Source: Spirochaetaceae bacterium (GTDB lineage Bacteria > Spirochaetota > Spirochaetia > Treponematales > Treponemataceae). Taken from it: 5,431 nt of DNA. The notes beneath the pieces were generated by a model that saw only the letters and a program-made list of their open reading frames with translations, was not told the DNA's origin and searched no databases. Each line of letters opens with the position of its first letter. The stretch's first letter is position 1. This document shows positions 1 through 5,431 of this stretch, piece by piece. Position numbers and translations under genes: made by a program. The DNA lies in NCBI GenBank assembly GCA_017382775.1, contig JAFNZQ010000130.1, positions 1-5,431 of the forward strand, given 5' to 3'.

Positions 1-578
1 ACCATAAATCTTAAAACGGCAGTTTGCAACGATGACAGAATTGTCATGGACAAAATGCAAAGTCCGATCAAAATAAAAAGTTTATTGCGAAAGCCCATAA
101 AACGTAACTTGGGAATTTTGCAGGTGATTTTTCCGTAAATTGCAGTAACAAAAGAATCGATTCCCCCAAGAAGCTGTTGATTCCCTCGACCTAAAAAGTA
201 CAGTAAAAGACGAACTGCCAGCAGCACAACAAGAAACATAATAAACTGGTTAGCCAAACTGAAAATCGCCAGAAAAATTGTTCCCAAAATGGAAATCAAG
301 GAAAACTGTCCGGTCGTCGCCACGGAAAAAAACAACTGCCGAAGTAAACTTAAAGTGAAAATTGCCACAATCGGGGAAAAATCCAGCATTCCTATTTGCA
401 AAAAACGGATTCGACGGAAAAAATTCAAAAACGGATCGCATAATTGGGACAACACATTTCCCACCGTCGAATAATTCAAAGATGGTATCCAGGTTAAAAA
501 AACACGAATTACCAACAACAACGAGTAAATCCTGATAAAAGAGGAAATCATCATTAAAATTTGAGCGATTACATTCAT
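1..578 (-). CDS. YggT-family integral membrane protein, two-domain form (partial, C-terminus off the left edge)
   Basis: The frame reads 192 codons from ATG at 578 and is still open at base 1, so the C-terminus is missing. The family match comes from the first YggT repeat: a hydrophobic helix, then RVFLTWIPSLN, CDPFLNFFRRI and GMLDFSPIVAI (residues about 25-72), the classic R..L.W.P / DP.L..FRR / DFSP pattern. A second, weaker copy follows (about residues 110-180), with RLLLYFLGRGN and a basic segment ending in a hydrophobic helix. Likely membrane segments lie at about residues 4-29, 66-88, 93-107, 110-129 and 166-184. YggT proteins are small inner-membrane proteins of poorly defined function, linked in some bacteria to osmotic tolerance or to cell division; no enzymatic role is visible. 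The start overlaps the dnaE stop (ATGA, 578-575), and an AAAAGG 10 bases upstream inside dnaE is a weak ribosome site, so expression probably depends on translational coupling. The family is fairly sure; the function is unknown. Confidence 0.88.
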   Translation of the reverse strand, partial: MNVIAQILMMISSFIRIYSLLLVIRVFLTWIPSLNYSTVGNVLSQLCDPFLNFFRRIRFLQIGMLDFSPIVAIFTLSLLRQLFFSVATTGQFSLISILGTIFLAIFSLANQFIMFLVVLLAVRLLLYFLGRGNQQLLGGIDSFVTAIYGKITCKIPKLRFMGFRNKLFILIGLCILSMTILSSLQTAVLRFM

Positions 579-3500
579 TCTAACCAAACCTTTTCCACAT
601 AAGGGGATTTTTGAATTTTTTCAATTGTTTCATCATCGTAAGTGATTTTAAAACAATCTGCAGCCTTAAAAGTTGCGTTTATTGAGTCGATATGAAAAAG
701 AACTTCTCCTCGACCGTTGGCAGCCTCGCAAATGGTATCTCGCAAGGGCTGCAATTCTTCATCTCTCAAAAAGCCATCCCGTAACATGATATGGACCTTT
801 TTGGCCGGAGGCAATGCCGGTTTTGGCGGTTCAGCCGGCTTGTTTTTGTCGATGATCCATTGGGGAACTTGACGACGCGCATTTGGTTTTGGGGGAACGG
901 AACCGTCCAGAGGAAAAAGACTTAACCCCACCATTTCCGGGCCATTGCCTTGGTCGCTGAAGTTTATTGTCCCATGAACCCCCACGTAATCTCCTATGGA
1001 AATGTTGCTTTTTTGTTTTTTCCATACTCGGGGAAAGAACACGACAGTTAATTCTCCGGAAAAGTCCTCCAGGGTTATTTTGGCCATTTCCTCGCCTTTT
1101 TTGGTGGTAAAAGAGGCAAAATCCACGATTTTTCCCGCCAAAGTGTATACAGTGTTTTCTTGATAGGTAAAATCGGTTTTTCCTTCTTTGTTGTTAAACT
1201 CTTCCATAAGAACGGAAATGTCCAAATCCTCCACTTCCTCAATACGTTCTCGCATTTCATCGTTAAGCGGTTCTGCGGATTTGTTTTTTTCAATCGGCTT
1301 CGTGACGGTTTTGCGATAAAAGCCCTGTGGTTCCGGCTTTGGCGGAACGGAGCCGTTCAGTGAGAAAAGGCTTAATCCCAGCATTTCCGGAATATTGCCT
1401 TGGTCGCTGAAGTTTATTGTCACATGAACCCCCACGTAATCGCCTATGGAAATGTTGCCTTTTAGTTCTTCCCAAACTTTTGGGAAAAACACGACTTTAA
1501 TTTTTCCCAAAAAGTCTTCCACGGTTATTTTGGCCATATTCTCACCCTTTTTGGTGGTAATAGGCATAAAATCCACAATTTTTCCCGCAAAAGTATATAC
1601 GGTGTTTTCACGATAGGTAAAATCGGCATCATCTTCTTCGTTACCTAATTCTTTCGTAAGAAGGGAAATGTTCAATTCCCCCACTTCCATAATGCGATCT
1701 CGCATTTCGTCATAGGGATGTCCGGAGAAGAAAAAGCCACACAGTTCATTTTCCTTGTTTAGGATTTCCTCCTTGGGCAATTCCGGCACAATGTCGAATT
1801 TAAATTCTTCGAAAAGATTAGCTCCCTCTCCGAAAAGGCTTTCTCCAACTGCGGAACGGGCTTTTGCGTATTCCAATGCGCGATCCAGGTTCACAGCCAA
1901 AGAGGTTCGATTGGGAGATTGCTCATTTGACACAGAATCGAAGGCGCCGGAATATATAAGGGATTCCATGTTTTTCTTGTTCACATAACCGGTCATTCTT
2001 TCCAGGAAATTCATAAAACTTGTAAATTTACCGTTGGCACTCCGTTCTTCGGTAATTTGAATTCCGATTTCTTCGCCCACATCCTTTATTCCGCAAAATC
2101 CGAAAACAACATTTCCCTCTGACACCGAAAAAAAGTTTTCCGACTTGTTTATATCCGGCGGAAGGATTGAAATGTCGTGACGCTTTGCATCCGTCACAAA
2201 AATGCCTATATCTTCCGCTTTATTTCTGCTTTCGTTTATTAAATTTGCCACATAAAATTCCGGAGCAAAATGGGCTTTTAAATAAGCAGTTTGATATGCC
2301 ACAAAAGCATAGGCCGCAGCGTGGCTCTTGTTAAAACCGTATCCGGCGAATTTTTCCATGATTTCGAAAATTTCGTCGGCTTTTTTCTCATCAAAATTGC
2401 AAGATTTTGCCTTTGGAATGAATTTTCCTTTCTCCGCGGCCATTACCTCCGGCTTTTTCTTTCCCATGGCACGACGAAGCAAATCCGCTTCACCCAAAGA
2501 ATATCCGGCAATTCGTTGAGCAGTCAACATAACTTGCTCTTGGTAAACCATAACACCGTTTGTTTCTTCCAAAATGTCTTTCAAAGACTCATGGGGATAA
2601 CGAACGGTTTTGGGGTTAAATTTACCGTCGATATATTGAGGGATAAAATCCATAGGTCCGGGACGATACAGAGCATTCATTGCCACAAGTTCGCTTACGG
2701 AATTGGGATGGAGTTGTTTCAAATACTTTTGCATTCCCGCAGATTCAAACTGGAAAACCCCCACCGTATCTCCGTGGCAAAAAAGTTGAAATGTTTTCTC
2801 GTCTCTATCAAGTATTTTCTGAGCAGAAAAATTTTCATATCCCGGTCTTCTTCGAATCAGTTTTTCCGCCCGTTTTATGAGAGTAAGGGTTTTTAATCCC
2901 AAATAATCCATTTTTACCAAACCGATTTGCTCGATAACGTCCATGGTATACTGAACTGCCGTAACATTATCCGCATTCTTTCCCTGGGATTTTACGGCAC
3001 AAACCGGAGCCCAATCCGGTAATGAGGTTCTTCCGATTACAATACCGGAAGCATGGAGAGATGTATTTCTGTGGCAACCTTCCAACTTTATTGCAAGTTT
3101 AAACAAATCATTGTATTTGGGATTATTCTTGTATTCCATTAAGCAGCCGCCATCCGGCACTTTATCCGTTGGTGGCTCAAGGGCGGCGGAGAGAGTAAAT
3201 TTTTTACTTGGCATCTTGGGAATTTTGGATTTTATCTCGGTCACTTCGGAAAGGGGAATATTCAATACCCGACCAACGTCAGCGATAATGGCCTTTGGTT
3301 GCTCGGTACTGAAAGTAACAATGTTTGCCACCTGATCATGACCGTATTTTTGCCTGGTGTATTCGATAATATCCTTGCGACCTTCTTCGCACATGTCAAT
3401 ATCGAAATCGGGCATGCTAATACGTTCCGGATTCAAAAATCGTTCGAAAAGAAGCCCGTATTCCATTGGATCGATATCCGTTATTGTCATGGCATAGGCC

Positions 3501-4621
3501 ACCAAAGAGCCGGCACCGGAACCGCGCCCCGGTCCTATGGGAATATCGTTTTTTTTCGCCCAGTTGATAAAGTCCCACACTATGAGAAAATAGCCGGAAA
3601 ATCCCATGGTAAAAATCGTATTTAATTCCATTTCGGCTCGTTCCCGTAACTGCGGCGTAATCTCCCCGTAACGGCGGACAAGGCCTTCTTCCACCAAATG
3701 GCGTACATAATCATCTTGAGTCTCAAAACCCTCCGGTATTTGATAAATGGGGAGACAGTCCTTCAATTCTTGAGTTTTGTATTTTTTGATAACGCAATCG
3801 TCGCACATTTCGGCTATTTTCCCTGTGTTGGAGACCGCCTCGGGATATTCCGGGAAAAGCTCGGCCATTTCCTCACCGGATTTCAAATAATATCCGGAAC
3901 CGTCGTAGCCTTTGTGATTGGGACTGTTCAACTCTTCCTTTCTGCCAATGCAAAGCAACACGTCGTGGGCCACGGCATCATCATCCATAACGTAGTGAAC
4001 ATCATTGGTCACCACCAAGGGAATATCGTGCTTTTTCGCCAACTCAACAAGCATGGGCATTACCCGGTCTTCATCGGCAATTCCGTGCTTTTGCAACTCA
4101 ATGAAAAAATTTTCTTTGCCGTAAATTTGTTGATATTTCAGTGCGGTTTCTTCCGCTTCCGGGGTTTTACCTTCCAGCAACAGCGATGGGATCTTTCCCG
4201 CAATACAAGCGGAAAGGCAAATGAGTCCTTCGGAATATTGTTCCATCACCTCTTCATCGATTCTGGGGCGGGAATAAAAGCCTTCCGTATAGGCCAAGGA
4301 GGACAACTTACAGAGGTTTTTATATCCTTGGGAATTTTTTGCCAGCAAAATAAGGTGATGATAATTCTTTTGATTTGCCACTCGTTGCCGGATTAAGCGA
4401 CTTTCCGCGGCCACATAAAATTCGCAACCGATTATGGGCTTAATTCCGGCATCCTTACACTGTTGTTCAAAATTCAATACACCGAACATATTTCCGTGAT
4501 CGGTAATTGCCAAGGCGGTAAATCCCAGTTCCTTGGCCCTTCCCACAAGAACCGGGATTTGAGCCATACTGTCGCATAAAGAGAAATCAGTGTGAACGTG
4601 TAAGTGAACAAAATTACCCAT
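575..4621 (-). CDS. dnaE: DNA polymerase III subunit alpha (DnaE) with a tandemly duplicated OB-fold module
   Basis: This is the catalytic subunit of the replicative DNA polymerase, 1348 residues from the preferred start; E. coli DnaE has 1160. Domains in order: PHP domain (1-about 275) with the full apparent metal ligand set H8, H10, D17, H42, E67, H88 or H89, C135, H179, D207 and H209; palm, thumb and fingers (about 290-830) with GPGRGSGAGS (363-372), catalytic D405 and D407 in PDFDID, and D572 in KMDYLG; a helix-hairpin-helix region (about 840-900); a possible clamp-binding segment ESLFG (927-931); two tandem OB folds (about 1000-1090 and 1150-1240); and a C-terminal domain (1267-1348, from VHIMLRDG to VWLE). 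A longer reading from ATG at 4642 adds seven residues. I prefer 4621 because GGTGGAG sits 6 bases upstream, family members begin close to FVHLHVH, and the promoter's predicted transcription start lies downstream of 4642. There is no frameshift. It is the C-family DnaE type, not PolC, as no exonuclease insertion is present. It probably forms an operon with the overlapping yggT-like gene. Confidence 0.97.
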   Translation of the reverse strand: MGNFVHLHVHTDFSLCDSMAQIPVLVGRAKELGFTALAITDHGNMFGVLNFEQQCKDAGIKPIIGCEFYVAAESRLIRQRVANQKNYHHLILLAKNSQGYKNLCKLSSLAYTEGFYSRPRIDEEVMEQYSEGLICLSACIAGKIPSLLLEGKTPEAEETALKYQQIYGKENFFIELQKHGIADEDRVMPMLVELAKKHDIPLVVTNDVHYVMDDDAVAHDVLLCIGRKEELNSPNHKGYDGSGYYLKSGEEMAELFPEYPEAVSNTGKIAEMCDDCVIKKYKTQELKDCLPIYQIPEGFETQDDYVRHLVEEGLVRRYGEITPQLRERAEMELNTIFTMGFSGYFLIVWDFINWAKKNDIPIGPGRGSGAGSLVAYAMTITDIDPMEYGLLFERFLNPERISMPDFDIDMCEEGRKDIIEYTRQKYGHDQVANIVTFSTEQPKAIIADVGRVLNIPLSEVTEIKSKIPKMPSKKFTLSAALEPPTDKVPDGGCLMEYKNNPKYNDLFKLAIKLEGCHRNTSLHASGIVIGRTSLPDWAPVCAVKSQGKNADNVTAVQYTMDVIEQIGLVKMDYLGLKTLTLIKRAEKLIRRRPGYENFSAQKILDRDEKTFQLFCHGDTVGVFQFESAGMQKYLKQLHPNSVSELVAMNALYRPGPMDFIPQYIDGKFNPKTVRYPHESLKDILEETNGVMVYQEQVMLTAQRIAGYSLGEADLLRRAMGKKKPEVMAAEKGKFIPKAKSCNFDEKKADEIFEIMEKFAGYGFNKSHAAAYAFVAYQTAYLKAHFAPEFYVANLINESRNKAEDIGIFVTDAKRHDISILPPDINKSENFFSVSEGNVVFGFCGIKDVGEEIGIQITEERSANGKFTSFMNFLERMTGYVNKKNMESLIYSGAFDSVSNEQSPNRTSLAVNLDRALEYAKARSAVGESLFGEGANLFEEFKFDIVPELPKEEILNKENELCGFFFSGHPYDEMRDRIMEVGELNISLLTKELGNEEDDADFTYRENTVYTFAGKIVDFMPITTKKGENMAKITVEDFLGKIKVVFFPKVWEELKGNISIGDYVGVHVTINFSDQGNIPEMLGLSLFSLNGSVPPKPEPQGFYRKTVTKPIEKNKSAEPLNDEMRERIEEVEDLDISVLMEEFNNKEGKTDFTYQENTVYTLAGKIVDFASFTTKKGEEMAKITLEDFSGELTVVFFPRVWKKQKSNISIGDYVGVHGTINFSDQGNGPEMVGLSLFPLDGSVPPKPNARRQVPQWIIDKNKPAEPPKPALPPAKKVHIMLRDGFLRDEELQPLRDTICEAANGRGEVLFHIDSINATFKAADCFKITYDDETIEKIQKSPYVEKVWLE
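824..1264 (-). repeat. Tandem duplication inside dnaE, second copy (C-terminal OB-fold module)
   Basis: This 441-base unit encodes DnaE residues 1120-1266. It contains a connecting helix (DEMRERI), an OB fold (about TVYTLAGKIVDF through MVGLSLFPLDG) and a proline-rich linker ending in KNKPAEPP. Bases 884-1264 align without gaps to 1334-1714 at an offset of 450. The linker then continues to align at an offset of 441 (KNKPAEP against KNKSAEP), so the copies abut directly and differ by three codons in the linker. By hand count, 91 of 127 residues are identical in the gap-free part. OB folds of DnaE bind single-stranded DNA ahead of the polymerase; which of the two copies does so here is unknown. 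Confidence 0.95.
1265..1714 (-). repeat. Tandem duplication inside dnaE, first copy (N-terminal OB-fold module)
   Basis: This 450-base unit encodes DnaE residues 970-1119. It begins directly after the conserved SGHP motif (966-969), which marks the usual junction between the helix-hairpin-helix region and the OB region in DnaE. It has the connecting helix DEMRDRI, the OB fold (TVYTFAGKIVDF to MLGLSLFSLNG) and a linker ending KNKSAEPL. Its position after SGHP is the normal place for the single OB fold of ordinary DnaE, but either copy could be the ancestral one. Both copies stay in frame and keep the ITTKKGE/FTTKKGE turn and VVFFP strand, so neither looks decayed. Confidence 0.95.
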
Positions 4622-4627
4622 AGTTAT

Positions 4628-4634
4628 CTCCACC
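4628..4634 (-). promoter_or_regulatory. Ribosome binding site deciding the dnaE start
   Basis: On the minus strand GGTGGAG lies 6 bases before the ATG at 4621, a good Shine-Dalgarno match at ideal distance. The in-frame ATG at 4642 lies upstream of this site and has only AT-rich promoter sequence before it. This makes the 1348-residue form the likely product. Confidence 0.85.
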
Positions 4635-4644
4635 AGTTTCATAC

Positions 4645-4673
4645 ATTGTACATTTTTTTTAAAGTTTTGTCAA
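4645..4673 (-). promoter_or_regulatory. Sigma-70/sigma-A type promoter for dnaE-yggT
   Basis: On the minus strand a consensus -35 TTGACA (4673-4668), a 17-base spacer and a -10 TACAAT (4650-4645; one mismatch to TATAAT) form a strong housekeeping promoter. The predicted transcription start is near 4638, leaving a leader of about 17 bases before ATG 4621. The -10 lies within a 9-base palindrome, TACAATGTA, that recurs upstream at 4687-4695. Confidence 0.85.
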
Positions 4674-4722: not shown

Positions 4723-4751
4723 TTGACAAGAACACAATATTGCTATATAAT
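4723..4751 (+). promoter_or_regulatory. Perfect-consensus sigma-70/sigma-A promoter for the ygfK-like gene
   Basis: TTGACA (4723-4728), a 17-base spacer and TATAAT (4746-4751) match the housekeeping consensus exactly in both boxes and spacing. The predicted transcription start is near 4758, giving a leader of about 24 bases before ATG 4782. The spacer contains the palindrome CAATATTG (4735-4742), which could host a repressor, but nothing else supports that. Confidence 0.9.
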
Positions 4752-4771
4752 ATACGGTGAAATAATTTTTT

Positions 4772-4775
4772 GGAG
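4772..4775 (+). promoter_or_regulatory. Ribosome binding site of the ygfK-like gene
   Basis: GGAG lies 6 bases before ATG 4782. It supports that start over the in-frame ATG four codons later (4794); both fit the family's usual N-terminal pattern M.D.M.PIPF, which begins at the first ATG. Confidence 0.8.
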
Positions 4776-4781
4776 TGTATT

Positions 4782-5431
4782 ATGTCTGACAAAATGACGC
4801 CGATACCTTTCAGCAAACTTTTGAATTGGGTTTTGACTGAAAAAGAAAAGTTGGGAACGATTTTCTCTATTCAACGACCATACAAGGCAGATGGTCGATT
4901 TAACCGAGATATTTTCGGAAGAAAACTTGAAACTCCCATTGGTCCGGCTGCCGGTCCTAACAGTCAGTTGGCGCAAAACATTGTTGCATCCTACTATGCG
5001 GGCGCCCGCTTTTTTGAGCTTAAAACCGTCCAAAACATGGATGGCGAAGAATTAAGCAAATGCGTCAGCAAACCCTGTATTACCGCTGCCGACGAATGCT
5101 ATAACTGCGAATGGTCCACCGAGCTTGAAGTTCCCCAGGCTCGTGATGAATACATAAAGGCCTGGATGATTTTGAACATGATGGCCAAGGAATTTGATTT
5201 GGGCGACATGGATGGCTTCCAGTTCAACATGAGTGTGGGTTACGATTTGGAAGGCATTAAAGGCCCCAAAGTTGCTCCCTTTATTGATGCAATGAAAGAC
5301 GCCTCCACCACCGAAATCTTTGCGGAATGCAAGGCCGTTCTTTTGGACGCTTGCGAACAAGGCAAATTTAAGAAATTCACAGCGGCCGATGTGGAAGCAA
5401 TTTCGCCCAATGTTTGCAATTCCGTAACAAT
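4782..5431 (+). CDS. ygfK: YgfK-type oxidoreductase subunit ('putative selenate reductase subunit'), N-terminal part
   Basis: The first 216 codons are present and the frame is open at the right edge; family members run to about 1000 residues, so roughly a fifth is seen. The visible part is the N-terminal region, related to the FMN-binding barrel of dihydroorotate dehydrogenase-like enzymes. Family motifs are MTPIPFSKLL (5-14), TPIGPAAGPNSQLAQNI (51-67), FFELKTVQ (77-84), KPCITAADECYN (97-108), EWSTEL (110-115), FNMSVGYDLEGIK (148-160) and AISPNVCNSVT (206-216). The missing remainder in this family carries glutamate synthase small-chain-like, FAD/NAD-binding and iron-sulfur regions. YgfK belongs to gene sets that include ssnA and molybdenum hydroxylase (xanthine dehydrogenase-like) genes. 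The selenate role is an inherited annotation; a part in purine or other reductive catabolism by anaerobes is also proposed, and nothing here decides between them. It is transcribed away from dnaE from its own perfect-consensus promoter. Confidence 0.9.
   Translation, partial: MSDKMTPIPFSKLLNWVLTEKEKLGTIFSIQRPYKADGRFNRDIFGRKLETPIGPAAGPNSQLAQNIVASYYAGARFFELKTVQNMDGEELSKCVSKPCITAADECYNCEWSTELEVPQARDEYIKAWMILNMMAKEFDLGDMDGFQFNMSVGYDLEGIKGPKVAPFIDAMKDASTTEIFAECKAVLLDACEQGKFKKFTAADVEAISPNVCNSVT

Follow-up and report, generated by a model that had tools for sequence, protein, structure and literature searches.

The replicative DNA polymerase III α subunit (DnaE) encoded by the window, the whole 5431-nucleotide stretch of DNA analysed here, carries two abutting copies of the OB module in its tail. 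The copies are largely identical, share an intact reading frame and group as sisters, and the same module is repeated in DnaE proteins of another family of the order. The reading that we tentatively prefer is that an in-frame tandem duplication, with an OB fold predicted for each product, may have lengthened the flexible tail of the polymerase and added to it a second bead that binds nucleic acid or the clamp. The architecture itself is not new: a known variant appears to have recurred in the window, recently and apparently independently. Although DnaE is a conserved and essential enzyme, duplication of the OB domain in its tail seems to have occurred more than once in a single bacterial order.

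The dnaE gene and its two OB units

The window spans an entire contig (G000:C59) of a 1.44 Mb draft genome that comprises 308 contigs and is 81.5% complete; the named organisms closest to it are mostly treponemes and other Spirochaetales. The dnaE gene is an uninterrupted ORF and gives the sole DnaE match in the assembly. The product scores 1282.9 bits against the NCBIfam equivalog PRK05673 (cut-off 1002), and its Pfam matches run in the order PHP, Pol3 core, finger, HHH_6 and OB. With PHP, Pol3 core, finger, HhH and OB in this order, the protein appears from its sequence to be a DnaE1. The motif PDFDID, which holds the catalytic aspartates, can be read by eye in the translation. The C-terminal domain, which is absent after the OB in DnaE2 (Timinskas et al., 2013; PMC3919608), is recognizable here, as residues 1281–1355 align with relatives and have a pLDDT that is mostly above 90. 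The clamp-binding pentapeptide departs from the canonical form in lacking its Gln. This Gln is also missing from seven single-OB DnaE proteins (L013, L036, L037, L060, L179, L184 and L186), so it does not define membership of DnaE1; it is kept in all 26 of the other two-OB proteins.

A promoter-like site with the −10-like sequence TACAAT ends at position 4645, only two bases from the first ATG of dnaE, which makes Met8 at 4621 the likelier start. This site (4673–4645, reverse strand; 11/12 consensus matches) stands back-to-back with another (4723–4751, forward strand; 12/12), and the pair would serve dnaE and a divergent ygfK-like gene; the scan found three promoter-like sites compared with 1.3 expected by shuffling. 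The ygfK-like gene (4770–5431, forward strand) is truncated to its 5′ portion and putatively encodes the selenate reductase subunit YgfK. It scores 290 bits against TIGR03315 over profile positions 1–211 of 1012, which is under the whole-protein cut-off because the contig ends. Downstream of dnaE, positions 3–587 (reverse strand) encode a YGGT family membrane protein.

The features of dnaE that are used below are as follows.

575–4642, reverse strand: dnaE, replicative DNA polymerase III α subunit, 1355 residues from the first ATG
4621, reverse strand: probable dnaE start (Met8), giving 1348 residues; P0002, a database protein, begins at this Met
1832–1846, reverse strand: clamp-binding motif GESLF, residues 933–937; lacks the Gln that relatives usually have (GQxSLF)
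1262–1711, reverse strand: copy A (lead-in helices, OB fold, Pro-rich linker), residues 978–1127, 150 codons
1646–1711, reverse strand: copy A helical lead-in, residues 978–999; AlphaFold helices 978–987 and 992–999
1544–1555, reverse strand: copy A TKKG loop, residues 1030–1033, placed by profile alignment to 5fku
1361–1600, reverse strand: copy A OB core, residues 1015–1094, five strands and one helix
1277–1330, reverse strand: linker between the modules, residues 1105–1122, predicted disordered (pLDDT < 50)
821–1261, reverse strand: copy B (lead-in helices, OB fold, Pro-rich linker), residues 1128–1274, 147 codons
1193–1261, reverse strand: copy B helical lead-in, residues 1128–1150; AlphaFold helices 1128–1137 and 1142–1150
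1094–1105, reverse strand: copy B TKKG loop, residues 1180–1183
911–1150, reverse strand: copy B OB core, residues 1165–1244
803–904, reverse strand: linker between copy B and the C-terminal domain, residues 1247–1280; low pLDDT at model residues 331–333 and 341–353
578–802, reverse strand: C-terminal domain, tau-binding by homology, residues 1281–1355

The initial annotation described two abutting in-frame units of 450 and 441 bases, and both the direct-repeat analysis and a diagonal match confirm them. The largest repeat in the window by far is direct and in frame, with 300 nt at 82% identity and a spacing of 450 (885–1184 and 1335–1634). Along the 450 nt diagonal, 30 nt segments starting at ORF positions 2920–3280 match at 20–29 of 30 positions, compared with 4–12 of 30 elsewhere. 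The identity between the copies starts abruptly after an SGHPY motif and tails off in the Pro-rich linker. The residue range given originally (970–1266 in the numbering of the 1348-residue form) agrees with the present coordinates to within about one residue, and a hand count of 91 identical residues out of 127 becomes 91 out of 126 gap-free residues on recounting; at the nucleotide level there are 72 differences over 378 positions. Each unit alone exceeds the cut-off of 27 for the Pfam OB profile PF01336 (36.4 bits for copy A and 47.6 bits for copy B). A blastp self-comparison of the DnaE protein returned the full self-match only and was uninformative.

Age and distribution of the tandem pair

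The differences between copies A and B comprise 44.3 nonsynonymous changes over 297.7 sites and 27.7 synonymous changes over 80.3 sites (Fisher p = 1.8e-4 on rounded counts). The resulting dN/dS is 0.36 (bootstrap interval 0.20–0.62), with values of 0.31 for the OB core and 0.83 for the lead-in. A ratio of about 0.5 is expected when one copy is free and the other constrained. Purifying selection on the pair is supported; the earlier proposal that both copies are under selection is likely, though not demonstrated, as the top of the interval lies above 0.5. Recent gene conversion was set aside as a cause of the high identity: in the last third of the unit (41 codons) dN is 0.067 and dS is 0.46, which fits selection better.

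A 125-row OB tree pairs the two copies as sisters (SH-aLRT 100), each on an end branch of 0.16; they group together and not with the f5 copies, f5 being the family in which other tandem OBs were found. They lie in a set of 54 rows, starred at 98, that otherwise consists of single OBs only. Conservation in at least 70% of 38 relatives defines 33 columns, of which each copy keeps 18 and loses 15. Of these losses 14 are common to both, which suggests that divergence from the consensus largely predates the duplication; the unique losses are G1074V in copy A and E1208K in copy B. At the 28 well filled columns where the copies differ, copy A is nearer to the relatives in ten, copy B in 15, and three are ties. 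We infer a single in-gene duplication in the lineage of the window, after its split from every sampled genus, with the copies then kept at similar rates.

The distribution of tandem OBs was surveyed by running an OB profile on 291 genomes of the order, with the family counts made by hand from the resulting table. All 118 genomes of the family of the window (f1) have a match, and two have two matches: the genome of the window and G168. In G168 the matches are on different contigs and the DnaE piece is a 193-residue fragment, leaving the window as the only tandem in the 118 genomes. In f5 (119 genomes), 58 have two or three OB matches, 46 have one and 15 have none. Of the 58, 26 were inspected and every one carries two OBs in one ORF. 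Among the bearers are Treponema primitia ZAS-2 (P0013) and Leadbettera azotonutricia (P0080), both of which we take to be of termite-gut origin. At least 120 of the 221 proteins that match the tandem region of ZAS-2 (E of 1e-20 or better) cover 92–100% of that region. In f3 and f4 (53 genomes) a second OB match occurs in 13 genomes, always in another ORF. A survey of genome contigs with 80 DnaE loci gave none with two OBs, 74 with one and six with no match, and a scan of 67 loci on viral contigs added no two-OB protein, most of them giving no OB match with the treponeme profile.

The initial annotation would be refuted if most DnaE proteins of the phylum already had two OBs. The count in the family of the window (one of 118 genomes) speaks against this, as does a phylum sample of 100 genomes, in which 58 have an OB match and only the genome of the window has two in one ORF; the profile (A1) was built from this order and has no match in the other 42, so this sample is a weak test of the absence of tandem OBs outside the order.

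Trees of the polymerase body point to recurrence. Across 98 DnaE bodies (one of which, L222, was cut early by motif and is short) the one- or two-OB state requires at least eight changes, of which well supported branches force five; the 15 single-OB f5 proteins were chosen deliberately for contrast, so the proportions in the tree are not natural. Constraining the window and eight f5 two-OB bodies to form a clade is rejected (p-AU 1.1e-4), in a test that concerns the polymerase body and not the repeat itself, with a group that was chosen once a first tree had been seen and with long branches in play. The trees thus argue against a common ancestry of the window and f5 tandem OBs, and the doubling in the window is apparently recent and separate from the older ones in f5. 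Within f5, where support is moderate, the two OBs of L219 pair with each other, and a two-OB clade includes L189 and L225 with a single OB each, so that a second OB can apparently be lost; gains and losses seem to recur in this family.

The f5 proteins come from the same order as the window and share with it the position of the OBs, a repeated lead-in-plus-OB module and a longer tail. The repetition of the module is indicated by the segments between the OBs, which keep the HPLD motif of the lead-in in seven of the 26 proteins and the Y-R-x-x-W part in several more. The f5 pairs differ in being about 28–53% identical (22–43 of 71–85 aligned positions match; 26 proteins), compared with 66 of 86 in the window, and both OBs are still recognized. 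They also differ in having a shorter gap between the OBs (median 40, compared with 81 in the window, part of which is OB outside the profile match) and in keeping the Gln of the clamp motif.

One f5 genome gives a mixed signal. The DnaE body of L191 (G039:C112) groups with the family of the window, with L017 as its sister, and its tail has two OBs; grouping the body with f5 is rejected (p-AU 1.1e-4, the group again being chosen once a first tree had been seen). Transfer, a mosaic or contamination are possible explanations. A tandem shared between L191 and the window was discarded, as only 22 of 77 positions agree between the two OBs of L191, which fall apart from those of the window in the OB tree.

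Duplicated OB domains have been listed as a minor variant of DnaE1 (Timinskas et al., 2013; PMC3919608). Together with family f5 of the same order, this corrects the impression that a two-OB DnaE is unprecedented. The variant has the PHP-Pol3-HhH order, two OBs and a C-terminal domain, as does the window, which has two adjacent OBs in the canonical architecture; the passage of the survey that describes it is one sentence, giving no function and leaving the bearers unnamed. We would guess that T. primitia and L. azotonutricia were those bearers. The same source places tandem OBs in two Lactococcus PolCs, which likewise represent OB doubling in a C-family replicative polymerase. No prior work on the function of the duplicated-OB DnaE was found in the literature searched.

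Predicted folds and ligand surfaces

The proposal that the whole OB module is duplicated and that both copies fold as an OB is upheld by AlphaFold, which predicts an OB fold at high confidence in each copy with a disordered linker between them. The tail model as a whole has a pTM of 0.44, and the placing of copy B in it is therefore unreliable. In structure comparisons copy A resembles solved DnaE over the lead-in and OB, and copy B resembles OB folds. The top Foldseek matches of the tail are the tandem-OB proteins RPA, Teb1 and Deinococcus SSB. RPA and the Deinococcus/Thermus SSBs are like the tail of the window in carrying a pair of linker-connected OBs on a single chain; no sequence kinship is claimed, and the TM-scores by query are low (0.16–0.19) because the OB arrangement differs.

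The closest structural reference is the tail of Escherichia coli DnaE (5fku, 5fkv and 5fkw; PMC4703070), in which, as in the window, the tau-binding domain comes after an OB that has a basic loop and a short helix. The E. coli protein has one OB (residues 960–1071) joined by a short link to the C-terminal domain (1079–1160), in contrast to the tandem of the window. The initial annotation treated the OB simply as a contact for the single-stranded template. This does not agree with the E. coli cryo-EM model, in which the OB lies about 40 Å from the template ssDNA and contacts the clamp through a loop (1003–1013) and a helix (1035–1043), with Lys1009 and Arg1010 at the clamp face (PMC4703070). 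According to the same eLife paper (2015), which sets its clamp-contact reading against an earlier ssDNA reading, the OB bridges to the fingers, thumb and exonuclease, and the isolated OB binds ssDNA.

Profile alignment to 5fku indicates that lysines at the places of E. coli Lys1009 and Arg1010 are kept in both copies. The Arg matching E. coli Arg1004 is absent from both; 68% of 38 relatives have Arg there. The OB cores are net negative (−2 and −3 for the two copies; mean over 71 single OBs, −0.9), a charge that lends little support to strong ssDNA binding. Charge was otherwise discarded as a clue, with little difference between the f5 OB1 and OB2 means (0.5 and −1.1). The distance from the end of the OB to the C-terminus is 110 residues in the window, whereas 29 single-OB f1 proteins have a median of 82; the longer tail in f1 is a single case (the window alone). 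In f5 this distance is 120 in 25 tandem proteins and 92 in 19 single-OB proteins (p = 0.0014, ignoring kinship).

Possible roles of the second OB

Copy A comes immediately after the clamp motif, like the single OB in relatives, and it is therefore likely to keep the canonical place at the thumb, exonuclease and clamp. Copy B would sit between OB A and the tau-binding domain, connected on one side through a linker that includes about 18 disordered residues and on the other through a linker of increased length. It may there add a second weak contact to ssDNA or the clamp and extend the reach of the tail, as the tandem OBs do in RPA. The net negative OB cores, the missing Arg, the 15 conserved columns that each copy has lost, the lead-in ω of 0.83 and the apparent loss of an OB from L189 and L225 weigh against this role. 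A more ambitious version, in which repeated independent OB doubling in the treponeme order builds an RPA-like tandem tail with a second template or clamp site and alters the retention or release of the polymerase at the fork, the window being an early stage, seems to us unlikely.

Passive retention is nearly as likely as the longer bead-on-a-string tail. The duplication could have been tolerated in a flexible tail and now be drifting in a fast-evolving lineage, with one OB at work and the other a passenger, an account that we hold quite possible but would not favour. It is consistent with the isolation of the window as the sole tandem in its family, with its polymerase body, whose end branch exceeds all others among 33 in a focused tree (1.12; median 0.3), with apparent secondary reductions of OBs in f5, and with the upper bound of ω, which exceeds the value of about 0.5 expected if one copy were free. 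The OB-core ω of 0.31, however, together with the equal branches of the two copies and their equal retention of conserved columns (18 each), speaks against it, as does the fact that both OBs are still recognized in 26 f5 proteins despite the extent of their divergence.

A second contact with the clamp, in which the extra OB doubles the OB–clamp interface and offsets the weak motif GESLF, is improbable. The missing Gln, the loop lysines in both copies and the clamp contacts of the E. coli loop and helix (PMC4703070) would all suit it. Retention of the Gln in the 26 other two-OB proteins and its loss from seven with a single OB do not, and motif compensation as a cause was for this reason kept as a rival only; in addition, no DnaN match with TIGR00663 was found in the incomplete assembly of the window. 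An assembly artefact, with two strain alleles of the OB region joined in tandem, is very improbable, even though the window is a whole contig of a draft in 308 pieces. The repeat is exactly in frame and has an abrupt edge within the ORF, the copies differ at 72 nucleotides with dS greater than dN, and P0002, which differs at one residue of 1348, is on a separately recorded contig of 5435 bp (which may be from the same sample).

The old f5 pairs, the young pair of the window, their single-OB sisters and the apparent losses form a natural series on the role of the DnaE OB in ssDNA binding or clamp holding.

The genome of the window also encodes SSB (a 142-residue frame) and DnaX. Co-variation of the tandem OB with tau was considered in 20 genomes and set aside: DnaX is shorter in some two-OB genomes (440, 471, 466, 504 and 512 residues in G056, G070, G074, G039 and G121) with no clear link, as it has 658 residues in G048 and, in two-OB G112, 551 residues, equal to the 550 of single-OB G042. 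Thermus and E. coli dnaX are known for slippage sites. In dnaX of the genome of the window (L239, G000:C254), at about 1360–1480 on the reverse strand, the first frame, of 400 residues, ends immediately after a run of 11 A, and an overlapping frame of 143 residues could carry the C-terminal part; the DnaX frame in 20 relatives has 440–673 residues. The run resembles such a slippage site, or else reflects an error in sequencing a homopolymer.
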